Shown one piece after another: positions 1 to 10,800 of a stretch of DNA of 64,000 nt. The stretch lies in contig VGYX01000002.1 of the NCBI GenBank assembly GCA_016872835.1, positions 1-64,000 of the forward strand, read 5' to 3'. Source of the DNA: Planctomycetota bacterium. GTDB taxonomy: Bacteria > Planctomycetota > Phycisphaerae > Phycisphaerales > SM1A02. The notes under the pieces are model-generated. The model was not told the origin of the DNA and ran no database searches. It worked only from the letters and a program-made list of their open reading frames with translations. A program made the translations under genes and the position numbers. How positions within the stretch are numbered: the stretch's first letter is position 1; each line of letters starts with the position of its first letter.

Positions 1-1
1 C

Positions 2-199
2 GATGAACTCGCCAACGACTACCACGGGAAGGCGAAGATCGGCAAATTGAATGTGGATAATGCACGCGATACCGCGATGAAGTTCCAAATTCAGTCGATC
101 CCAACGATCGTCATCATGAAGAACGGTCAGGTCCATAAAAAGTTGATCGGGCTTGTTTCCAAGAGTGTGCTCGCGGGTGCGATCGACTCAGCGATCTGA
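2..199 (+). CDS. Thioredoxin, C-terminal part (5' end outside window)
   Basis: This open frame enters from the left edge and stops with TGA at 197-199. It encodes the last ~65 residues of a thioredoxin. The translation contains IGKLNVDNARDTAMKFQIQS followed by IPTIVIMKNGQ, which matches the typical thioredoxin segment with the cis-proline (IPT) loop and the glycine-containing turn before the last helix. The catalytic CxxC lies upstream of the window and cannot be checked. Thioredoxins are cytoplasmic disulfide reductases. The identity of the fold is clear; which paralogue it is cannot be said. Confidence 0.85.
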   Translation, partial: DELANDYHGKAKIGKLNVDNARDTAMKFQIQSIPTIVIMKNGQVHKKLIGLVSKSVLAGAIDSAI

Positions 200-274
200 T
201 CGGTCGCTTTTGTTAGACTCTGAACCGAACACGGTGGTCGCGAGTGCGCGGGCCCGTGGGTTGACAATTTTGTT

Positions 275-347
275 GGGCCTGTAGCTCATTTGGGAGAGCG
301 CTTCCATGGCATGGAAGAGGTAGTCGGTTCGACCCCGATCAGGTCCA
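275..347 (+). tRNA. tRNA-Ala (anticodon GGC)
   Basis: A full cloverleaf can be folded by eye. The acceptor stem GGGCCTG/CAGGTCC contains the G3:U70 wobble that is the alanine identity element. The D-arm is GCTC..GAGC, the anticodon stem is CTTCC/GGAAG with loop ATGGCAT (anticodon GGC), and the T-arm is GTCGG-TTCGACC-CCGAT with discriminator A347. The CCA end is not encoded. An antisense integrase gene ends inside it (TGA at 286-288), so this tRNA is the integration target of the element to its right. A TAGACT hexamer lies at 214-219 and a TTGACA at 261-266, but no well-spaced promoter pair is evident. Confidence 0.95.
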
Positions 348-1690
348 CTGAATCGTTTCCAGCAGTCCGATCACCAGTCGCCACAAAATGGCGACGGTGG
401 TCTGCTGCTTCAGAAACGGGCTTTTGGTCGTCGGATCGTGGCGACACGGACATGATCCGATGACGGCTGACCAACGGAGAAACCGTCACATTCACATCAC
501 CCGCTAGGGCTTTGGGCTCGACGTTCGATGCCGAGCCCGAAGCCTGATCCTGAGCTGCTCGCAACGCAGCTTGGGAGGCGTGATCGGGCGTGATGTTTCG
601 CAGGTAGTGGTTGTGGAGGACGACCTCCGTATGTCCAGCCCAAGCCGCGACCTCAGAGAGCTGGTGCTCCCTAGCCCAATCCGTGATGCACGAGGCACGA
701 AGGCTGTGCATGACCTTCGGGTACGGCTCGACTCCCGCAGCCTCGACCAGTCGCCTCATTCGCACGTTGAGGTTCGTATGAATGCTAAGGGTCGGCAGGA
801 TGAAGCCCGAGCTGTCGCTTAAAGTCGAATGGGCCTTCTGAAGCAGATCAAACAGCTCTGGGAATAAGCGAATCAGCCTCGACACCTTGCCACAGGATGC
901 TGTCTTGGATGACATCACCTAGTTCTCGACGGTCCCAGTTCACGTCGCTCCAGCAGAGTTTCTTGATCTCACTGGGAATGCGAAGACCGCCGAAACGTGC
1001 CAAGCCGAGAAGACAGCGATCCTCATGGTCGGTGGCGTGTTGTATGACCTGCAGCACATCTGATGCGGACACATACACCTCGCGAGCCTTGTTTCGACCT
1101 GCTGAGATCGGAACCTTCCCCAGCTTGAACGGGTTGTGCGTGATGACACCTTCTAGGATCGCCTGATCCATCACCATCGACATGACTCCGCATGTCTTTC
1201 GTACGGTGGCGTCAGCCATTGTTCCACCCTGCTTTCCAGGCAACTTGAGCAGGTGCCGTCTAAAGGCTTGGGCTGCGGTTGCATCCACGCTCTTGAGGGC
1301 GTGACCGGCGAAGAACGTTTGGCAGTGCGTCTTGGCACGGTTCCACACCTTCAGGGTGCCCTGCGTCTTGCCGTGCCCGTGGTTCCGGATAAACGCATCG
1401 ATGGCATCGATCACAAGCATGTCGTGCGTTCGAGGTCTGACCAAGCCCAAGTCCTGGATCTTGCGATACAGGCGTTCGGGGATGTTCTTCAGCCACTCCT
1501 GCACCTCTAGTGTCGGGGTGGTTCCAAGGGTGGAGCAGGCGATCAGAGCTTCAAGCTTGACCCTAACGAAGTTGTGGTCGGCCTTGCTGAGTAGACCCAC
1601 TGACTTCAGTTGCATGGTCGTCTTGAACCCGCTTGGGAGTTCAATCGACAGGCGATAGCCCTTCTTGTCCTGATTGATCGAGACGCTCAT
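286..1690 (-). pseudogene. Tyrosine recombinase/integrase of the tRNA-Ala element, frameshifted
   Basis: Two minus-strand frames together make one phage-type integrase. The N-terminal part (1690 to ~920) has the SAM-like core-binding domain and the start of the catalytic domain with RFGGLRIPSEI, the first active-site Arg region. The C-terminal part (~918 to 286) carries HSLRAS (His-x-x-Arg), AGHT and the nucleophile region HNHYLR. The frames join near 913-925, where reading must skip one base after CTA to pass from WDRREL into VMSSKTAS. The C-terminus (GVEPTTSSMPWKRSPK) is encoded by the antisense of tRNA-Ala, as is common for integrases that use a tRNA attachment site. The start codon overlaps the stop of the upstream HTH gene (ATGA). 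Either the gene is broken or there is a one-base sequence error; a programmed +1 shift is less likely. Confidence 0.8.
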
Positions 1691-1914
1691 GCTGCCTCCT
1701 TTCCCACGATGCCACGCAAGAAGTCCTCGATGGCACTCTTTGGAATGCGGATAACGCCACGGAATCGAACGACACGGATCTGCCCGGCTCGGATCATCCG
1801 GCGGATGGTTGATTCGCTGACCTTCAGGATGTGATCAGCTTCTCGGACGCTGTAGGTAAGGCACGATGTTTCGCCATTTGAACCCTGGCGAGGGGTTTTT
1901 TTGAAATTAAGCAT
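1687..1914 (-). CDS. Excisionase-like helix-turn-helix DNA-binding protein (HTH_17 type)
   Basis: Encodes a protein of about 75 residues. The core YSVREADHILKVSESTIRRM followed by IRAGQIRVVRFRGVIRIPKSAIEDFL is the MerR-like winged helix-turn-helix found in excisionases and in small regulators next to integrases. The role is probably recombination directionality or control of the int operon. I chose ATG at 1914-1912 because a TATATT -10 element sits six bases before it; the in-frame ATG at 1932 would lie inside the promoter. The stop codon overlaps the integrase start by 4 bp (ATGA), which points to translational coupling. The family is clear; the excisionase role is inferred from position. 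Confidence 0.8.
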   Translation of the reverse strand: MLNFKKTPRQGSNGETSCLTYSVREADHILKVSESTIRRMIRAGQIRVVRFRGVIRIPKSAIEDFLRGIVGKEAA

Positions 1915-1920
1915 GCCAAA

Positions 1921-1949
1921 AATATACAACATTATCGGACTATAGGCAA
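1921..1949 (-). promoter_or_regulatory. Promoter of the xis-int operon with possible operator
   Basis: On the minus strand TTGCCT (1949-1944) and TATATT (1926-1921) are separated by exactly 17 bases, a near-consensus sigma-70-type pair. The start codon of the HTH gene is six bases past the -10, so the transcript would be leaderless. The surrounding AT-rich stretch contains an inverted repeat ATTATC (1931-1936) / GATAAT (1961-1966) and the palindrome ATAATTAT at 1962-1969, a plausible autoregulatory operator. The promoter is well supported by sequence; the operator is speculative. Confidence 0.65.
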
Positions 1950-2065
1950 ATAGAAAATCTGATAATTATTTCCGTAGTGTGCAGGATTGGCTTTGCTCAC
2001 CCGTAGAAGCGGGGCGTACTGGATCCCAAGCGGGCTTCCATTTCGGGGCTTCGGGAAAAACAACC

Positions 2066-3117
2066 ATGAAGGTAGCGGTGGTTCGTTCGTTTGGTTTGTT
2101 CGCATCTGCCCTGATCGCAGGAGCTGCTGGTGCTCAGTCAACCCAAGCCGTGGAGTGGAAGGTGAGCGAGGGGGGCAATGGGCATTGGTGCGGCTTTGTC
2201 TCATGGCCCAGTCGTTCAACCTGGAGAGACTCTCGCCAGTGGGCTGAGGATCGTGCCGGTCACTTGGTCACTTTGACATCTGGTGCCGAAGACACCTTCG
2301 TAACCAACACGCTGATGACTGTCCCAAATATGTGGAATGGCGTTCAGGGCCCATGGATCGGTGCGTTTGGGACTGCTCGATGCAGTGGTGGAAACTCGTG
2401 CTTCCAGTGGGTCACTGGAGAACCATTTCTTACACCCGCTGGCACCCTAGAAATCCAGACAACATTCGTGATACTCGGGGGGGATTGACGCCAGTGTGCT
2501 TCTGGGAACCTTCTTGGACGCGGGCATGGCAAGACCAAACTGAGGAGTCATACTCGCAGCCAGATTCAAGAAGTGCAGTGATTGAATGGGATGCTGACTG
2601 CAACGGGGACGGGATCGTGGACTACGGGCAGATCCTCCGAGGCGAGCTGCAGGACGACAACCAAAACAACGTCCCTGACGTCTGTGAGTACACCATCACG
2701 GGCGTGATCCCTGTATCTGGTCCTGTAGGTGGGGGCACAACCATCATCATCAATGGAACAAACTTCCCCGCGAGCCCAGTCGTCAAGGTTGGCGGTGTTG
2801 CGGCTACCGATGCGGTTCGAGTCTCAGCCACTCGCCTGACGGCGGTTACCCCAGCAGGCTTTCCGGGTATGACCTCTGTCACGGTAAGCAACTGGGTCCA
2901 GCCCAACGCCTTCTACTACCGGCCTGAGTGCGGCTCCGACCTCGACCAGAACGGCTCCGTGGACGCGGGTGACATTGCAATCATCCCGCTGGACTTCGGT
3001 CCGTGCTACTCCAACGCGGCAAGCACCCAGCCCGACGACTCCAAGCCCTTCATGCTTCGTGAAGAGCCCGCTCCTGAAGCTCCTCGCTTTGGCTGGTCCC
3101 AACATCTAAAACTATAA
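2066..3117 (+). pseudogene. Secreted C-type-lectin-like / IPT / dockerin-tagged protein, frameshifted
   Basis: The first frame (ATG 2066) gives a signal peptide (hydrophobic FGLFASALIAGAAGAQS) and the first two thirds of a C-type-lectin-like domain (WRDSRQWAEDRAGHLVTLTS, then GPWIGAF and WVTGEPF). The fold continues in the next frame from ~2435 (SYTRWHPRNPDN, the expected lectin continuation). The break is at a T run in CCATTTCTTAC; one extra T would restore the frame. The second part holds a Ca-binding-like DCNGDGIVDYG and DDNQNNVPDVCEY segment, an IPT/TIG domain (about 2695-2900) and a dockerin-like motif DLDQNGSVDAGDIAI ending DFGPC. Such domain strings are typical of planctomycete exported proteins. 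It is either decayed or a sequence error in a homopolymer. Confidence 0.75.
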
Positions 3118-3123
3118 CTCCTC

Positions 3124-3152
3124 AAGACCTCTGGCTGCAAGCCGGAGGTCTT
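3124..3152 (+). terminator. Hairpin terminator after the lectin gene
   Basis: AAGACCTC (3124-3131) pairs perfectly with GAGGTCTT (3145-3152), and the inner bases GGCT/AGCC extend the stem. It lies 7 bp after the TAA at 3115-3117 and is followed by GTCTTTGG, which has only a weak T tract. Confidence 0.65.
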
Positions 3153-3262
3153 GTCTTTGGGGCTCTCAAATTCATTTGCTCAATCGTCGGATGGGATGAG
3201 CTTGAAGCCAGCCCCGAGGCTTTGAACAGGCGTGGTTGTGCAGACTGCCGTATGATTTCGCC

Positions 3263-5536
3263 ATGACTGCACTGAGCAGAGCGGGGAATCACATCATTCG
3301 AATCGATAAGGCAGCGGAGCTGGTTCTTGATGGCAAGTGGCAATTGCCGCACTTTCAGAGGCCGTACGTCTGGTCGAGAGACCAGCAGCGAGAGCTCTTT
3401 AAAAGTCTCATGGAGAACTTTCCAGTCAGTTCCATTCTGCTGTGGGATTGGGATCGTACTAAAGGGCCCCCGATCCCTTTTTCCCTTGGGCCAGCCAGCG
3501 TCGAATTGGATAAGGCAACGCACCTTGTGATTGATGGGCAGCAGCGTCTGGCCACAATCGCTAAGCAGTACCTGCTGGCAGAGACGGAAATGGGTCACTG
3601 GAGTCAGTTTGATGGCCGTTCCACGGGGGTCGTACAAATCGACTTCAGTAACAAGGACTATGAGGAGGATCTTCGCTTGATCATCCCCGGCAAGGCGGCT
3701 GAGCGGGGTCGATACGCCGAGCGAGATGGCCGCGTGTTGCTTCCGGGGCTACTACGAGACGACTTTGAGAGGCAGGTTTTGGACCACCTGCCATCGGAAC
3801 TTCAGCGGCGTAGGGCCATGAAGGTTCGGAACGCCCTGACTCAAAGAATCCTGCTCTACGACACTTTGCCACGAACCGCGAATATCGATCAAGCAATTGA
3901 TGCATTCGAGAGAATCAACAGCGAAGGCACCCGACTTGGAGTCGTTGATATCGCCGCGGCTCAAATATTCTTTGCTGATCGCAAACTCAGCACCGCGACC
4001 AAAAAGCTGCACCGTGAGCTTGCTGGTAAGCCAGATTCGCCCAATCGGTTTCCTGTATTTGGTATCGATCTCCTGATTAGAAGCATCCTGTTCCACGCAT
4101 ATGAGGTGCGTGGGATCCGTACAGCAAGCCCCGCTGTTACCCAGAAAATGGGCCGAAGCAGAATGCCCAACAAGACGAAAGTCAGTCGTGCGTGGAAGGT
4201 CACCAAGAAGGCCTTCGAGGAACTGAAGGACTTTCTTACGAATGACTTTAAGCTGCTTGATTCGTCAGCACTGGGCAGCTCAAAGCTCGCGATTCTGGTG
4301 GCGAGTCAGGCATTTGTCAGACGGCGATTGACAGAAGAGGACCGGCAGAGGCTGAAGCGCTGGCTTGTGCTTGCGGCGGTTTTCAAGCCTTACAGCGGCA
4401 CCTCCACAAATACGAATGTCGATCGGGATATGGATGCGATGAGCAGGTCTGGCTCGATCGACTGGACGACCCTCGATCGAACTCTTCAGGAAAATGCCCG
4501 TGGCAGTAGTCAGCTGGAGATTCTGCCGGAGCATCTCTATCCGGATGAGCAGCCGCTTGGGAGGCAACATATTTTGAACCATGTCACATGGCTTCTGGCC
4601 CATCATCAAGGAGCGATCGACTGGGTCAGTGGCTCCCCAATCCCTGCACTACACCCTGGTGTTGCCACAAGCTCGTGGGATAGGCACCACATCTTTCCTG
4701 TGAGCTACATGCGTGAGTCTGATTCTTACCGCCCTCACACCAACCGAGCCGGCAATAAGGCGTGGCTCAGCAAGGACACGAATCGGAATCACCTAAGGAA
4801 TCGACCGCCTGACGATTACCTGAAAAAGGTCCGGTTGAGCGACTTTGGCGAACGTGCTCTTAAGGCTCAGTCTGTCTCGTTTGATCCTCGAAACTACGGG
4901 GATCCTGTCGCTTTCATTGCGGCTCGGGAGAAGCAGCTGGCGGTTGAGATCAACCAGCTGCTTACGCTTTGGGGTACGGGGCGAGAAAGCAAGTTTGAGG
5001 TTGATTTGCCGGCAAAACGCCGTGTGCAAGATCTCATTAAGCGAGGCGAAGAATCGCACACGGTTGAGTTCAAGTCGTCGTTTCATATCGAGCCCAACAC
5101 CGGTCAGAAGCAAGGCTTCCTTCAGCATGCGGTTTTGAAGACCCTAGTCTCCTTTGCCAACTCTGGCGGAGGCACTCTTCTTGTTGGAGTCGATGATGAT
5201 GGACGAGTTCATGGGATCGAGGGAGAGACCGAGGTCTTGAAGCGGTTGAGCAGTAGTGGTCGAGCTGAGCTGCCAATTTTGATCCGCGACTATGTGAAGA
5301 AAGAGACCTATCCGAAGGGTAAGAACTCTTTTAGCCGGGTTGACTATCTCGCGATTGAGGTTGAACCGCATGGAGGGAAGAAGGTTCTGGTCGCTCGTGT
5401 ATTTCAGACGCCCGAACCGATCTGGATGTTTACGAAGCCCGTCGGTACGCCTGATCGAGGGGTGTGTGTCGTGTACCAGCGTTCGGGGGCCTCGACGGAA
5501 GTGGTCCGTGAGGCTGCATCCCCGCCACAGGATTAG
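3263..5536 (+). CDS. DUF262-DUF1524-AlbA_2 (Schlafen) fusion protein, putative anti-phage nuclease
   Basis: Encodes about 757 residues with three modules. Residues ~10-260 are DUF262, the ParB/GmrS-like NTPase domain, with FQRPYVW (31-37), DGQQR (91-95) and FERINSEG. Residues ~440-530 are DUF1524, the HNH-type nuclease of GmrSD-like enzymes, with WDRHHIFP (His475, His476) and SKDTNRNHLRN. Residues ~590-740 match a Schlafen AlbA_2 domain with ESHTVEFK (Glu602), LVSFANSGGG and GVDDDGRVHGIEGE (Asp644-646). DUF262-DUF1524 proteins include the type IV restriction enzyme GmrSD and SspE, which cut modified or unprotected phage DNA; AlbA_2 domains occur in RNA- or DNA-targeting proteins. The start ATG 3263 is favoured because TATGAT lies six bases upstream; a TTG at 3236 is the alternative. 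It is the only large intact gene in the tRNA-Ala element. The defence function is inferred. Confidence 0.85.
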   Translation: MTALSRAGNHIIRIDKAAELVLDGKWQLPHFQRPYVWSRDQQRELFKSLMENFPVSSILLWDWDRTKGPPIPFSLGPASVELDKATHLVIDGQQRLATIAKQYLLAETEMGHWSQFDGRSTGVVQIDFSNKDYEEDLRLIIPGKAAERGRYAERDGRVLLPGLLRDDFERQVLDHLPSELQRRRAMKVRNALTQRILLYDTLPRTANIDQAIDAFERINSEGTRLGVVDIAAAQIFFADRKLSTATKKLHRELAGKPDSPNRFPVFGIDLLIRSILFHAYEVRGIRTASPAVTQKMGRSRMPNKTKVSRAWKVTKKAFEELKDFLTNDFKLLDSSALGSSKLAILVASQAFVRRRLTEEDRQRLKRWLVLAAVFKPYSGTSTNTNVDRDMDAMSRSGSIDWTTLDRTLQENARGSSQLEILPEHLYPDEQPLGRQHILNHVTWLLAHHQGAIDWVSGSPIPALHPGVATSSWDRHHIFPVSYMRESDSYRPHTNRAGNKAWLSKDTNRNHLRNRPPDDYLKKVRLSDFGERALKAQSVSFDPRNYGDPVAFIAAREKQLAVEINQLLTLWGTGRESKFEVDLPAKRRVQDLIKRGEESHTVEFKSSFHIEPNTGQKQGFLQHAVLKTLVSFANSGGGTLLVGVDDDGRVHGIEGETEVLKRLSSSGRAELPILIRDYVKKETYPKGKNSFSRVDYLAIEVEPHGGKKVLVARVFQTPEPIWMFTKPVGTPDRGVCVVYQRSGASTEVVREAASPPQD

Positions 5537-5723
5537 CAGAGCGGCCTGGCGTTTGGGGGTAGACGTGACTGGGTTGCTTGGTGGCAAGCCACTCAATGAA
5601 TCTCTTTGGAGGCTTAGTTCGGGATTGAGTGGGCGGAGTCAGCTTTTTGAATGCCTCTTTAAATGAACGGACGCGTTGCTTCGTTTCGTGATCCAATGGC
5701 GGTGATGAGGTTGTCTTGGGCAT
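5430..5723 (-). CDS. Small hypothetical protein (uncertain)
   Basis: A 97-codon minus-strand frame starting at ATG 5723. Its first ~50 residues (KQRVRSFKEAFKKLTPP and KPPKRFIEWLA) look like a small basic helical protein and lie outside other genes. The last third is antisense to the end of the DUF262 fusion gene and looks non-coding (Pro/Arg/Ser-rich). There is no clear Shine-Dalgarno sequence and no TANNNT hexamer at the expected distance. No family recognised; it could be chance. Confidence 0.25.
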   Translation of the reverse strand: MPKTTSSPPLDHETKQRVRSFKEAFKKLTPPTQSRTKPPKRFIEWLATKQPSHVYPQTPGRSANPVAGMQPHGPLPSRPPNAGTRHTPLDQAYRRAS

Positions 5724-6905
5724 GGGGGTTCTCTGGTCTCTTCTGTAGGTGTTCCACAGACAGCCTCAAGAACCCGTGAGCCCCATGACTGCGGGGCCTC
5801 AAGAAAACAAGTGAATCTGAAGGTGCTGGAGGTCTTGAGCCTGCATCATGATCCTGTCCCTGTAGACCTTCAGACCCAAGGCCTCAAGACCCATACCACT
5901 CAAGAGCCTTGGGAACTGGAGGATCAGGTGGCAGGGGATCTTTGGAGGATCAACGGCTAGAGGGTCTTGTGGCTTGGCTCACCATGATCTCGGGGGATTG
6001 AGGTGGTTGAAGAGGAGGATCATCAGGAACCAGACTCCAACAGGCACCAGTTACTTGATGCTCTCTAGCGACCTCTTGAGCATTCCCTTTAGAGTCATCT
6101 TGAGGATCCTTAGGACCTGTTGCTTAGGACACCTCATGTACGGGTACAGTTGCAATGACCCCTCTTCAGAGGTCATCACTCACATGTACGGATGCACGTG
6201 TAGCAACGGCAAGTCTTCCACCATTTTGGCTGAGTAGGGCCTACTTCAGGCTTGCATGAGTACAGCAGGGGAACTGCTGGAGCGGGATAGAGTCTCTTCC
6301 CGCCTCGTGGTACGGCATCAGTGCCGCACTCAAAGTGTTCTGTCACTCTCGCCGGACAGGAGCTCTCGTTTGGATCCCCAATATGGGTGGTTGCCCTACG
6401 ACCGGAACGAGGCCGGGAACTGAGATTCACTTGGCACGAGACAGGATCCGAACCCGTGGTCGTCCATGAGTATGTATGTCCCGTTTGAGCATCCGAATTG
6501 GAATCGGGTGGGATTCCACTTCACGGGGGTCTCGTTGCTACCGGAAAGGTTCCGGAATGGGACCCGTTCCGGAATCACTGTGGGGACGGAACGGGGGATG
6601 GCTTCATCCGTGGGCTTATCCCGACGGCTGCTGCGGCTTCTGTGGGTGGTTTGGAAGTGCTTGTCGCGGCGAAGGGCATCAACCCACTCCCCGGCCATCC
6701 TGAGAGGTGCTGACACGCTGTAGAGCTCGCAGGGCCATCACCACCAAGACCCGTACGGTCTCCGGCAACTGGCCCCACAGCTCGACGAGCTCTCCCAGTT
6801 GATTGGAGTCGCACGACGTTGCACCCCGAAAGGGGGGAGTTGAGGGGGGAGTCTTGGACAGACCCTCCAGAGCAGCGGAAATTCCTGAGAGAATTTGAAG
6901 GGCTG
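5537..6905. other. Long non-coding right part of the integrated element
   Basis: No convincing gene is visible in most of this 1.4-kb stretch apart from the two doubtful minus-strand frames listed separately. Between about 5760 and 6120 the word CTCAAGA/TCTTGAG and variants recur many times on both strands (for example near 5765, 5799, 5832, 5883, 5899, 6075 and 6099), with a small hairpin GCCCC..GGGGC at 5780-5797. Between 6498 and 6580 there are palindromic words: GGAATC..GATTCC, and TTCCGGAA twice. Composition is lower in GC than the core to the right. It may be decayed coding DNA, a structured RNA region or att-proximal debris of the element. Confidence 0.5.
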
Positions 6906-6933
6906 ACAGCTTGGAAGGCTGCCGCTCTACCAC
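6679..6933 (-). pseudogene. Remnant of an integrase-associated planctomycete ORF running out of tRNA-Gly
   Basis: This frame begins inside the tRNA-Gly fragment and runs away from the core chromosome. The stretch LGELVELWGQLPETVRVLVV followed by MALRAL resembles, from memory of planctomycete genomes, the short 'W..LPe.ir.gi.AMV.aa' segment found beside or at the end of integrases at tRNA sites. No start codon or ribosome-binding site is obvious. I treat it as a remnant of a second integration event at tRNA-Gly. The resemblance is weak and needs a profile search. Confidence 0.3.
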
Positions 6934-6947
6934 TGAGCTACTCCCGC
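6906..6947 (-). pseudogene. tRNA-Gly(TCC) 5' half, 3' half missing
   Basis: On the minus strand the sequence starts GCGGGAG-TA-GCTC..GAGC-G and continues into the anticodon arm GCAGC-CTTCCAA-GCTGT (anticodon TCC, 6915-6913). That is a standard tRNA-Gly 5' half with acceptor strand, D-arm and anticodon arm. After position ~6906 the expected variable loop, T-arm (GG-TTCGA-TCC) and the complementary acceptor CTCCCGC are absent, and I could not find them within the next 1.3 kb. The gene is therefore truncated exactly where the element-like DNA meets core DNA, which marks an old recombination boundary. Confidence 0.75.
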
Positions 6948-6987
6948 AGAGCCCGGAAGTGTATCCGGCGGATGCGAGCCGTCGTCG

Positions 6988-7818
6988 TCAGCCGAACACG
7001 CTGGGCAGGCTCGGATACAGCCAGCGCACCAGCTCGTTGGTGAACTGCGCCAGCACCAGATTCAACATGATGATCGCCATGAAGTTGCTCACGAAACTGC
7101 TGGTGGCGGCCTGGCCCACCCCGGCGGCGCCAGGGCGACAGTGAAAGCCCTTGTAGCAGCTGATCAGGCCGATCGCGAGGCCGAAGAAGACGCTTTTGAT
7201 CAGGCCGCCCGCGGGCTCGCGCCACGAGACGAATTGCGCCGTCCAGAACCAGTAGTCCTCGCTGCTGACGCCGTAGATCTTGGTGGTCACGTACCACGCG
7301 CCGATGCTGCCGAGCAGGTTCGAGTAGATCGTGAGCACGGGCGTCATGAGCGTGCAGGCGATCACGCGCGGCACCACCAGATGCTGGATCGGATCCGCGG
7401 CCATCGCGCGCATGGCGTCCAGCTGTTCGGTCACGCGCATGGTGCCCAGTTCGGCGGCCAGCGCGCAGCCGACGCGACCGGCCACCATCACCGCAGCAAG
7501 GACCGGTCCGATCTGCTTCACCACGCTCACGTTGATGATGCCGCCCATGCGGTCCTGCTGGCCGATCTCGGCGAACTGGTAGTAGCCCTCCAGGGCCAGG
7601 ATCATGCCGATGAACGCACCCGTGATGGCGACCACGGGGATGCTGAGCACGCCGATGGCGTAGAACTGCGGCCCAAGCAGCCGCCAGCGCAGGCTGTGCC
7701 ACGGATGCTGCGCGATGTGCCACAGGGTCAAGCCGCAGAATCGCATGAAGCGTCCGAAGTCCGCGATTCGCGCCTGTGACGTCCACGCGGCGCGTTCGAT
7801 GTGAGCGAAGACGTGCAC
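6988..7818 (-). CDS. mlaE: MlaE-family ABC transporter permease
   Basis: About 276 residues with several membrane segments. The stretch IPVVAITGAFIGMILALEGY, then GPVLAAVMVAGRVGCALAAE, LGTMRVTEQLDAM and the C-terminal TNELVRWLYPSL are hallmarks of MlaE/YrbE permeases, which move phospholipids between inner and outer membrane with the ATPase MlaF and the MCE protein MlaD. The start is placed at GTG 7818-7816 because TATGCT lies six bases upstream (7830-7825); the longer frame to 7887 would cross this promoter and a terminator. No mlaF or mlaD is next to it in the window, so partners must be encoded elsewhere. The truncated tRNA-Gly follows its 3' end. Confidence 0.85.
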   Translation of the reverse strand: MHVFAHIERAAWTSQARIADFGRFMRFCGLTLWHIAQHPWHSLRWRLLGPQFYAIGVLSIPVVAITGAFIGMILALEGYYQFAEIGQQDRMGGIINVSVVKQIGPVLAAVMVAGRVGCALAAELGTMRVTEQLDAMRAMAADPIQHLVVPRVIACTLMTPVLTIYSNLLGSIGAWYVTTKIYGVSSEDYWFWTAQFVSWREPAGGLIKSVFFGLAIGLISCYKGFHCRPGAAGVGQAATSSFVSNFMAIIMLNLVLAQFTNELVRWLYPSLPSVFG

Positions 7819-7851
7819 GCGGCGAGCATAGCGGCGGGGCAAAACGCGAAA

Positions 7852-7875
7852 GGGCCCCGGTTTGCACCGGGGCCC
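7852..7875 (-). terminator. Terminator of the large secreted protein gene
   Basis: A perfect 10-bp stem GGGCCCCGGT (7852-7861) / ACCGGGGCCC (7866-7875) with a 4-base loop. It lies 24 bp past the stop codon at 7900. Read on the minus strand it is followed by TTTCGCGTTTTG, so it serves the gene 11052-7900. Confidence 0.8.
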
Positions 7876-7899
7876 CTGATCGAGCAAGGTGAACTCAGG

Positions 7900-10800
7900 T
7901 CACTGGCAGGGGCCGGTGCTGAGCAGGATCAGTGCCACGTCGCCGAAGTCGACTTCGCCCGAGCCGTCGAGGTCGGTCGGGCAGCCGGGGCAGGCACCGA
8001 AGTCGATCAGCGCGAACGCCACGTCGCCGTTGTCCACTTCCAGGCTGCCGTCGACGTCGCCGAAGCAGCCACCCGCGTTCGGGCACGCCGTGTTCTCGGC
8101 GCCCGGCGTGTCGGTGCGGGTGGCCGGATCCAGGAAGTAGCCGTTGCCAACGAACCAGTAGCCGACCGGGCTGCAGCGGTAGATCTGGGACGGCGTGCCG
8201 GCCGAGTTCGGGCCGATGCGCGGCGCGTACCACCACTCGACGGTCGAGCCGGTCGGAGGCGCGGTGCGAATCGAGGTGACCACGGACACCTTGTCGAGCA
8301 CCGCATCCCACGGGGTGATGTCGATCACGCCGTCGTCGTTGGTGTCCAGATCGGTGTTGATGGCGCCAGTGAAGCCCTGCACCAGCACGAGGGTGACGTT
8401 GTCAGTGTTCTCCAGGTTCAGCGACGCGGTCTGCAGGTCGCCCGCGACCGGGCTCAGGCCGGCCGAGGCGTAGTTCTTGAAGATGGTGCCGTCACGCGCC
8501 GCGGTGCCCGTGGCCTCGTTCTTCACCGTGATCAGGAACTTGCCCGAGGCCGGAATGGTCTGGCCCGCGAGATCCACCACGCACTCCACGGCGCCCGACT
8601 TCAGGTCGGTGTTGGTGCCGCCCACGGAGACCGTGGCGTCACCCAGCACGATGAAGGCCAGACCGTCCAGCGCGGTCCCGGGTGCGCCACTCAGCTCCAC
8701 GTACTCGTCCACATCGTCGCCGGACTGGTCCATGCGCGCCTCGCTGATGACCACCGGAGAGTTGCCGCCACCGCACGCGGTGAGCGTTCCGGCGGCGGTG
8801 ACGCAGGCGTCATCCCAGGCCACGTTGCAGCAGTCCGGAACCGCGGCGCACACCGCCTCACAGCAGGCGCGGTTGAAGCAGTGGCTGTTCGGGTGGGCCA
8901 GGTAGCAGTCGCCCGCGTCGCTGTCACCGCACGAGAAGATGCGGGGCAGGCTGCAGCTGCCGTTCACGGCGCCGGGTGTGTCGTAGCCGGTGGTGATCGA
9001 GCCGGGGCCGATCGTCCACTCGCCGGTCTCGACGCAGCGGTAGACCTGCGCCGGCAGCGTGCCGTTCGAAGGTCCGACCGACGGGCTGGCATAGACTGCG
9101 CCCGTGTCGCCGATCACGCCGACCTCGGCGATGGCCGACATCCACGGAGCGGCGTCGATGATTCCGTCGTCCTCGGCGTCGAGATCGGTGCCGATCGCGC
9201 CGTAGTAGTTCCACACCAGGTACACGCTGAGCGCACCCGAGTTGTCGAACACCAGACCGCCACCGCAGTTGAAGTCGGTGGAGACGCCCGAGAGCGCGAA
9301 GGTCTGCTCGGTCACCAGGAACCGGCCGCTGGCGCCGATCGAGAGACCGTTCAGGCTCACGGCTGCGCGGATCACGCCGGTGTTGGGCTGGTTGTTGCCG
9401 TTCACGCCGAGGTTGTTCAGCACCACGATGCTGACGCCGGTGAGCGAGGTGCCCGGGGCGCCCGTGAGTTCGAGGTACTCGTTCTGGTCGATGTTGTTGA
9501 CCACGTTGTCCGGGTCACGCAGTCGCATTTCGCTCAGCTCGAGCTCCGGCGGATTGCCTGGTTCGAGGCAGTTCGCCAGGGCCGTGCTGGCACAGTTGCT
9601 GTCCCACTGCGTCTCGCAGCAGGTGGGGATGAAGCTGCAGACCGCGCTGCAGCAGCTACCCTTGTCGCAGCCAGGATTGGCATGCGCCAAGAAGCAGCTG
9701 CCGCTGCCGGGCTCGCCGCACGCGGAGCACTCGGGGTTCACGGCCTTCGGCGTGTCCTTGTTGTTCGAGCCGGCGCCCACCGGGTCGAAGGAGCCGATCT
9801 TCCAGCCGCCCTGCGGACTGCAGCGATAGATGTGTCCGGGGACGAAGGTGGTGTCGGGGCCGACCATCGGGGTGTTGCCGCCGATCTCGTTGGCGACCGA
9901 GTAGGTCCACTCGCCGAGGTTCGTGCCGACGTCCGGTGCCTTCACGGGGCCGGTCGCAGCGAACTTCACGAAGCCGACGCTGTCAACCACGCTCGCCCAC
10001 GGCTTGATGTCGAGCTCACCGTCGTCGTCCAGGTCGAGATCGGTGCCGATCGCGCCGCCGGTCCAGCCGCGCACCAGAATGTGCGTGACGTGGTCGCCGT
10101 TCTCGAAGGTCAGCGCCGCGGTCTGCAGATCGCCAGCCCGGCCGAACGCGATGCCGTCCTGGCCGCTCGTGTTCTTCAGCGTGATGAGGAAGATGCCGCT
10201 GGCAGGTATCGTCTGCCCGGTGAGCGGGATGATGCACTCGGCCACGCCGCTCTTGGTGCTGGCGTTGCCGTCGCCGATCACGACGTAGGTGAAGTCGGCC
10301 AGGCTGGTGCCGGGCTGGCCCGAGAGTTCCGCGTACTCGTCGTTGTCGGTGCCCGTCTGATCGATTCGGATCTCGTTGATCTGCACGAAGCCCGCCGTGC
10401 AGGCCGGGTTCGCCGCGCCGGGAGTGTCACCGGCCACGCTCACGTCGGCCAGACCGACCTGCCACAAGCCGGTGATCGGGCACTTCTTGGCGTAACTCAC
10501 GAATGAGCCGCCGTCGGGGCCGACCTGATTCGCGCTGTAGACATAGTCGCCCGAGATGCCGTCAGGATTCGCGACGGCCATCAGCGCCACGTCCGAGACG
10601 ATCTCGCTCCACAGCGGATTGTCGATCGTGCCGTCGTCGTTCAGGTCGATGTCGTCGCCGGGGAAGCCGCTGAAGTTGCGGACCAGCAAGAAGGTCTTGT
10701 TGTTGTCGGTGCCAATGCCCAGCGCCGAGACCAGGTCAGGCACGGTGAGCGTGTACGTGGGCTCCGCCATCACGAAGAAGCCACTCGAGGGGATCGCCTG

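Follow-up and report, generated by a model that had tools for sequence, protein, structure and literature searches.

What does a protein do in which a restriction-type nuclease and a Schlafen-like domain are joined in a single chain? This question is raised by gene P0001 of a Planctomycetota bacterium (GTDB SM1A02; GCA_016872835.1), which lies within positions 1–64,000 of contig VGYX01000002.1, forward strand, i.e. the stretch of 64,000 nucleotides analyzed here and subsequently designated the window. P0001 has an uninterrupted frame of 757 codons with zero internal stops and combines a DUF262, an HNH and an AlbA_2 part. With a probability of roughly 0.5, we consider P0001 to be a stand-alone, island-borne single-gene defense protein, in which, by analogy with characterized enzymes, a nucleotide-gated DNA nuclease would be accompanied by a Schlafen-type ribonuclease (RNase) as second effector.

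Domain content of P0001 and its relation to known nucleases

All three domains of P0001 are real, with sequence evidence that is weaker for the HNH region than for DUF262 and AlbA_2 (Table 1). The Pfam scores of GmrSD_N, which represents DUF262, and of SLFN_AlbA_2 both exceed the curated cut-offs, and the motif VIDGQQR (residues 89–95, with DGQQR at 91–95) fits the (I/V)DGQQR nucleotide-binding motif of the GmrSD family. The HNH region was assigned because of its HHIFP...N pattern, the conserved histidine and asparagine residues and the structure model. The three-domain order within one protein of 757 residues, which had been put forward in an initial annotation of this DNA, is borne out by the open reading frame (ORF), by Pfam for DUF262 and AlbA_2 and by fold and residues for HNH, and its numbering of His476 and Glu602 is correct. 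Its designation of the middle part as a DUF1524 HNH agrees with the HHIFP...N pattern and with the fold matches to BrxU, SspE and the Cas9 HNH, while the Pfam family GmrSD_C was left unmatched.

Across 56 aligned sequences sharing the three-domain order, DGQQR, E597, E602, K604 and D645 are invariant (56/56 each), while H476 and N507 of the HNH region are each present in 55/56. When P0001 was aligned with human SLFN11 (7zel) using phmmer, E597, E602, K604 and D645 paired with E209, E214, K216 and D252, respectively; here, residue 237 of the 7zel chain was taken as E209, a numbering that fits the spacing of the E, E, K and D residues. Cleavage of tRNA by SLFN11 is abolished by the substitutions E209A, E214A and K216A, but not by D252A (PMC9482658). 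Judged from this alignment, putative counterparts of all three SLFN11 residues essential for RNA cleavage are kept in 56/56 fusions. D644 was rejected as counterpart of the third Schlafen carboxylate: its column is not conserved, and D252 of SLFN11 pairs with the invariant D645.

An AlphaFold2 model of P0001 was built with 55 relatives, yielding a mean predicted local distance difference test score (pLDDT) of 69.9 and a predicted template modeling score (pTM) of 0.56. When averaged over blocks of ten residues, pLDDT reached 80–93 for residues 471–570 and 60–94 for residues 591–757, and was lower in the DUF262 part. Foldseek detected BrxU as the sole match of this model below E 0.001 (1.0e-7), followed by SspE (1.1e-3), DIP2311, Schlafen 13 and SAMD9. 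Upon structural re-alignment, BrxU scored a Z of 18.3 across residues 7–569 with a root-mean-square deviation of 19.6, the latter indicating that the domains are arranged differently in BrxU and in the P0001 model. Of the other DUF262-DUF1524 proteins, the C-terminal domain of SspE reached a Z of 12.0 and DndI of 11.9. The AlbA_2 fold proposed earlier for the C-terminus was recovered as well: DIP2311 aligned to residues 579–755 (Z 13.2), the rSAMD9 structure titled tRNase domain (9o0d) to residues 589–751 (Z 10.2), and SLFN14, SLFN13, SLFN5 and SLFN11 inside residues 579–757 (Z 9.0–9.6). ParB (residues 9–223, Z about 7) and the Cas9 HNH domain (residues 429–557, Z 5.8) scored below 8, where a match may reflect merely a shared arrangement. 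A profile of 58 fusion proteins searched against PDB sequences likewise placed BrxU first (8.4e-31), and also matched SLFN14 (1.5e-9) and SLFN11 (4.3e-8).

P0001 thus resembles BrxU and GmrSD, as DUF262 with its DGQQR motif is followed by HNH and BrxU is the top PDB match by profile and by fold, but it differs from them by the additional C-terminal AlbA_2 domain and the unmatched GmrSD_C. BrxU and GmrSD cleave modified DNA in a manner dependent on nucleoside triphosphates, and the DUF1524 nuclease of SspE is activated when DUF262 hydrolyzes nucleotide (both reviewed in PMC10952713). SspE and DndI share a similar two-domain fold with P0001, but AlbA_2 is added in the latter, and PADLOC models of SspE match P0001 weakly. 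The genome carrying P0001, which is 98.9% complete, gave no match to PglZ (PF08665) of BREX, a gene expected for a BrxU of the BREX-associated type, and no match to the DndC family (TIGR03183), the sole phosphorothioation component searched, for which control genomes also stayed below the cut-off. The first result speaks against a BREX partner, and the second may speak against a phosphorothioation partner. Schlafen proteins SLFN11, SLFN13 and SLFN14 and the AlbA_2 tRNase domain of SAMD9 are similar in fold (Z about 9–10) and in the E-E-K residues; in contrast to these, P0001 joins just one AlbA_2 lobe to a part resembling DNA nucleases, and its RNase activity is a prediction.

The closest plan in the literature is that of ParB(DUF262)-HNH-HEPN fusions such as VNG7073 (PMC3710099), in which DUF262, HNH and a predicted endoribonuclease also occur in one chain, the RNase module being HEPN there and AlbA_2/Schlafen in P0001. 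Machnicka 2015 names DUF4268, DUF4357 and DNA_binding_1 as additional domains, while the terms AAA_4 and PF04326 are absent from its text (PMC4619093). GmrSD and Schlafen are treated as separate BREX add-ons in PMC12839542, where a preprint from 2025 about bacterial Schlafens is also cited. No published description of the DUF262-HNH-AlbA_2 order was found in the literature covered, which was partial with bioRxiv and most subscription papers outside it; this agrees with the initial statement that no system of this order was known. From its sequence, we regard P0001 as a restriction-type DUF262-HNH protein with a Schlafen module, apparently an undescribed combination of known parts.

Collections of defense models already cover one of these parts. 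Among 27 PADLOC models matching P0001, the candidates HEC-05 (3.7e-22) and PDC-M55C (7.6e-19) scored best, and NsnA, Orf5, HEC-06, PD-T4-2 and SspE (0.0098) matched more weakly; a scan of P0001 with NCBIfam produced no match. Since two HEC-05 models and PDC-M55C match 58/58 fusion proteins, the DUF262-containing part is already catalogued as candidate defense. However, the best stretch of P0001 is limited to residues 12–65 for HEC-05 and 11–99 for PDC-M55C, whereas the models span 554–621 positions, and none of these models was seen to extend to the AlbA_2 part of P0001.

Distribution and history of the three-domain order

Is P0001 a one-off? A scan of 84,980 species genomes, using a profile of the HNH-AlbA_2 half, yielded 161 confirmed loci, of which the best 80 were kept. 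In 55 of these 80 all three parts are encoded within one open frame of 688–966 codons, two of them touching a contig end (L107 begins and L063 stops there); P0001 is thus not a one-off, and the order is widespread. The 25 remaining loci were left out of the alignment: 12 are cut by a contig end or have a broken frame (L050, L054, L058, L059, L060, L071, L075, L079, L080, L091, L093, L109), and 13 lack AlbA_2 motifs (L102, L104, L108, L110 and L112-L120; L104 is cut by a contig end). As the query was made from fusions, the proportion of 55/80 shows breadth and not prevalence. Taxonomically, the 55 loci comprise 7 archaea, 17 named bacterial phyla and 6 loci without phylum assignment, and include the named strains Thiohalophilus thiocyanatoxydans (L049) and Psychroserpens burtonensis (L094). 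Further fusions were found in planctomycete genomes. A search of plasmid proteins added the same three parts on plasmids PL100 of Haloquadratum walsbyi and phalar01 of haloarchaeon DL31. In the resulting 58 fusion proteins (55 loci, two plasmid proteins and P0001), GmrSD_N and SLFN_AlbA_2 are found in 58/58 and GmrSD_C in 7/58 (Pfam, E ≤ 0.01).

On contigs of the viral collection, scan A4 returned 62 loci, three of which were recognized by eye as fusions, L208 and L212 being whole and L218 partial, while a single-sequence scan gave five pattern matches and 0 relatives, and scan A2 gave 0 relatives among 96. In the phage collection two records match P0001, covering just 11% of the query in its DUF262 part. 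Among 294 genomes of the phylum and 397 of the class, P0001 has no close relatives: matches of at least 300 residues are at most 30% identical, and shorter AlbA_2 stretches reach about 55%. The distribution is patchy, with any match at E ≤ 1e-6 in 35/397 genomes of the class; among the family genomes listed, P0001's own genome is the sole one with a match.

Phylogenies were inferred as quick trees, in which P0001 sits on a very long branch. For DUF262-HNH, the tree comprised the 58 fusions and 18 proteins without AlbA_2, after four long-branched AlbA_2-less rows had been dropped. A single clade of all fusions was rejected here (log-likelihood 176 lower; approximately unbiased (AU) test, p 1.2e-12). 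The fusions rather form two sets, one of 49 bacterial and methanogen proteins and one of nine, separated with a support of 91 that is not decisive; the set of nine consists of P0001, six haloarchaeal proteins, L066 and L083. An earlier tree of 80 rows contained three changes of the fusion label, at least two of them forced, and the reduced tree contains two. Judged from these trees, AlbA_2 would have been either added twice or gained once and then lost. In the quick AlbA_2 tree P0001 falls outside the other fusions. Because AU tests on the AlbA_2 domains rejected neither one all-fusion clade (p 0.248) nor a grouping of P0001 with the haloarchaeal proteins (p 0.421 and 0.512), no separate capture of AlbA_2 by P0001 is claimed.

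The scans also revealed related arrangements. Ten of the DUF262-HNH relatives lacking AlbA_2 (L102, L108, L110, L112-L115, L117, L118, L120; 652–906 aa) bear C-terminal extensions; Pfam detected no family beyond GmrSD_N in these proteins (10/10). Two planctomycete proteins that, by reading, resemble HsdR-type helicases (L015 1-2058, L016 1-2058) have at their C-terminus an AlbA_2 domain similar to the one in the fusions; from these, restriction enzymes may repeatedly carry AlbA_2 as a tail. The DL31 plasmid harbors a separate AlbA_2 gene and a second DUF262 gene within 6 kb of the fusion (L040 2538-3449, 5368-7230).

Gene neighborhoods and the proposed function

The initial annotation had raised the questions of whether relatives of P0001 lie near tRNA genes and near other defense genes. 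The former does not hold as a general feature and was rejected: a tRNA gene is present within the fetched flank in just 7 of 37 loci, a subset of the 80 that consists mainly of loci with long flanks. For the latter, neighbors were collected from 49/55 loci (up to two ORFs of at least 120 aa per side, chosen by longest-ORF rules; 166 genes) and compared to a control of 77 genes, drawn from 20 planctomycete regions outside the genomes that carry the fusions. PADLOC (E ≤ 1e-15) matched 253 models in a set of 85 neighbor genes, with up to 7 genes for the type I methyltransferase, 6 for mad2 and 4 for the specificity subunit. In a set of 81, 156 models were matched, led by type I restriction endonuclease, SoFic and helicases of the DISARM, BREX and Dpd types. 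The controls matched 7 models (RtcR, MADS, subtilase), none of them of restriction-modification, but a comparison of 156 and 253 with 7 overstates the contrast since one gene can match many models; moreover, three of the control's 7 models are MADS, and the top models of the fusion neighbors likewise include mad2 and mad5. Pfam detected HsdM_N in at least 5, Methylase_S in at least 4, HSDR_N in at least 5 and SWI2_SNF2 in at least 7 of the 166 genes, alongside housekeeping families. At three loci (L088, L090, L103) the fusion is preceded by a gene resembling NPPF/Y/W-type methyltransferases and followed by a DExH gene of 1008–1070 codons, as judged from motifs only. Hence, type I restriction genes do lie beside some relatives, but the neighborhoods are mixed.

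How could such a protein work? Because of the analogy with SspE and BrxU/GmrSD, the N-terminal three quarters of P0001 should be a nucleotide-gated DNA nuclease: DUF262, with its ParB/Srx fold, would bind and hydrolyze nucleotide and thereby license the HNH domain, which would cut or nick incoming, probably modified, DNA. AlbA_2 would act as a Schlafen-type metal-dependent RNase and second effector, probably cutting tRNA and halting translation, a step that would follow once DNA cutting has begun or failed and that might protect against phages. Precedents for such a design, by analogy, are the RNase carried in one chain with ParB(DUF262)-HNH in the HEPN fusions mentioned above and the tRNA nuclease PrrC, which is embedded in a type I restriction-modification locus and fires upon inhibition of restriction (PMC12707154). 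In addition, RloF is a DUF262 gene located between hsdS and hsdR (PMC4619093). A few fusion relatives likewise lie among type I restriction-modification genes, whereas no such gene was identified beside P0001. PrrC is, to our knowledge, not an AlbA_2 protein. If both nucleases work, one protein would attack the DNA of an invader and could in addition stop translation, without any partner gene or modification system, and would represent a prokaryotic case of a Schlafen-type RNase guarding a restriction enzyme. The 57 relatives with the same parts (55 genome loci and two plasmids), some of them in named strains, make this idea directly testable.

A number of observations weigh against P0001 being a defense protein with two nucleases. 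Pfam fails to recognize its HNH region as GmrSD_C with the threshold relaxed to E 1, and in relative L098 neither H476 nor N507 is retained. Pfam finds a single AlbA_2 stretch, whereas the Schlafen core of animal proteins has an N- and a C-lobe; with one lobe, P0001 is a member of the AlbA_2 superfamily rather than a Schlafen proper. The E...E-F-K pattern occurs in 20/21 AlbA_2 domains examined, two of which belong to fusion members, and therefore marks the domain and not the fusion, so that its conservation is no proof of RNase activity. The pattern is also present in AlbA_2 proteins that are commonly regarded as regulators. P0001 itself is lone and divergent, with no row of the DUF262-HNH tree exceeding 26% identity to it and a branch of 5.8, and no other defense gene was identified in the visible part of its island. 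Finally, each PADLOC model is matched by two genes of the 81-gene set at most, and the restriction setting is therefore true of some relatives only.

The generality of the motif bears in particular on a competing explanation, which we hold to be a serious possibility although not the probable one: P0001 would be a restriction enzyme similar to GmrSD and BrxU, whose AlbA_2 domain merely binds nucleic acid or regulates, e.g. in target recognition or dimerization, and is no RNase. This would fit with the occurrence of AlbA_2 in many other settings of the same phylum, including the C-termini of the HsdR-like proteins L015 and L016, and with the SAMD9 AlbA_2 structure 7ksp, which is titled as a DNA-binding domain with DNA. 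The retention of the three residues essential in SLFN11 by every aligned fusion and the shared fold with the rSAMD9 tRNase domain argue for an RNase instead.

Support for the defense reading comes from mobility, i.e. from the residence of P0001 in a tRNA-Gly island (see below), of relatives on haloarchaeal plasmids and of two complete fusions on contigs from the viral collection. Together with the patchy distribution, the same facts could also point to a factor of island or prophage competition that excludes rival mobile elements, so that the island would benefit while the chemistry remained unchanged. With a few chromosomal relatives flanked by genes resembling type I restriction-modification, we consider this an unlikely explanation.

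A wider proposal can also be made, albeit tentatively and as somewhat short of an even bet: the DUF262-HNH-AlbA_2 proteins would form an unnamed cross-domain family of one-gene "two-warhead" defense, with a DNA nuclease and a Schlafen tRNase that have been joined more than once and are both governed, within one chain, by the same nucleotide-gated sensor. If true, prokaryotic restriction enzymes would commonly use the Schlafen module as their backup effector, and this module would correspond directly to the animal antiviral Schlafens.

The tRNA-Gly island carrying P0001

A tRNA-Gly gene is the insertion site of the island that carries P0001. P0001 lies 1.4 kb inward from the right end of this island, whose middle falls in a contig gap. 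The right end is marked by a direct repeat that includes the 5' part of tRNA-Gly(TCC) and breaks in the anticodon arm (Table 1). Next to mlaE (6988-7887), the window retains no more of the tRNA than this 5' part, which ends at 6907, whereas the whole tRNA-Gly(TCC) is present at the copy on contig C24, the integrase end of the island (G000:C24:4142-5459). An intact tRNA-Gly(TCC) lies beside mlaE in 11/12 loci of the same genus, the twelfth (L144) having a mere 34% mlaE match. In relative L127, similarity to the window extends as far as the break (80%, 1.7 kb) and is followed by similarity to C24 (75%, 1.1 kb), so that L127 represents the empty site. The G+C content is 54–57% in window positions 1–6000 and 54–66% in C24:1-5500, as compared to 64–72% elsewhere. 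The integrated element proposed initially is thus confirmed, although with boundaries that differ from those seen in the window alone. The tRNA-Ala gene at 275-348 was discarded as attachment site, as no second copy was found in the window with up to 3 mismatches and the boundary is at tRNA-Gly.

Table 1. Coordinates of P0001, its domains and the features of its island within the window
Feature	Position	Strand	Evidence
P0001 coding sequence (DUF262-HNH-AlbA_2)	3263..5536	+	ATG at 3263, stop ending 5536, 757 residues
DUF262/GmrSD_N (ParB/Srx-like), residues 25-236	3335..3970	+	Pfam E 4.8e-25
HNH region, about residues 423-557, with H475/H476 and N507	4529..4933	+	fold matches, conserved H476 and N507
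SLFN_AlbA_2, residues 597-746, with E597, E602, K604, D645	5051..5500	+	Pfam E 1.3e-14
Tyrosine integrase, split over two frames	286..1690	-	Phage_int_SAM_5 E 2e-8 in the piece 848-1690
HTH_17 (excisionase-like) ORF	1687..1932	-	Pfam E 1.7e-12
Lectin-like/TIG gene, split over two frames	1979..3117	+	TIG E 2.4e-12 in 2332-3117
Island right end, 46-bp direct repeat with 5' part of tRNA-Gly(TCC), breaking in the anticodon arm	6907..6952	-	100% copy at G000:C24:5383-5428

Within the window part of the island, P0001 is the only large intact gene, as had been noted before. This does not extend to the C24 end, which holds an unbroken integrase-like ORF (from 4142) running into tRNA-Gly and a 666-aa ORF that is dockerin-like by reading; the former was recognized by reading and from its weak similarity to the window integrase (22% identity, E 0.002). 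With this integrase unbroken and no relative close enough for comparison, the earlier idea that selection had kept P0001 intact is a conjecture. In the window, the integrase piece 286-918 has no Pfam match, and Lectin_C in 1979-2488 (0.009) is below the cut-off. The two split genes next to P0001, its lack of a close relative and its very long branch would also be expected of a gene without a role in defense, either housekeeping or degenerate, that persists in a decaying island. This we judge to be very improbable, as the frame of P0001 is open over its whole length with all motif residues intact, the distribution of the fusions is accessory and not core, and some relatives have restriction genes as neighbors.

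Some minor features of the region were recorded. The contig end beside the split integrase (window 1-348) carries a second, diverged thioredoxin-like gene and tRNA-Ala(GGC); the other copy of this pair is located at about 34053 of G000:C1 (97% identity for the tRNA, 52% at amino acid level for thioredoxin). A tRNA-Gly(GCC) reported by ARAGORN at 10234-10330, inside a 1050-aa ORF, is probably false because Rfam does not list it in this region. Window segments 5667-6272, 1912-2061 and 3071-3210 recur on C24 with 95%, 89% and 86% identity, respectively. The split lectin/TIG gene of the window lies between the second and third of these, as does the 666-aa ORF on C24, as if cargo genes had been exchanged between shared flanks.

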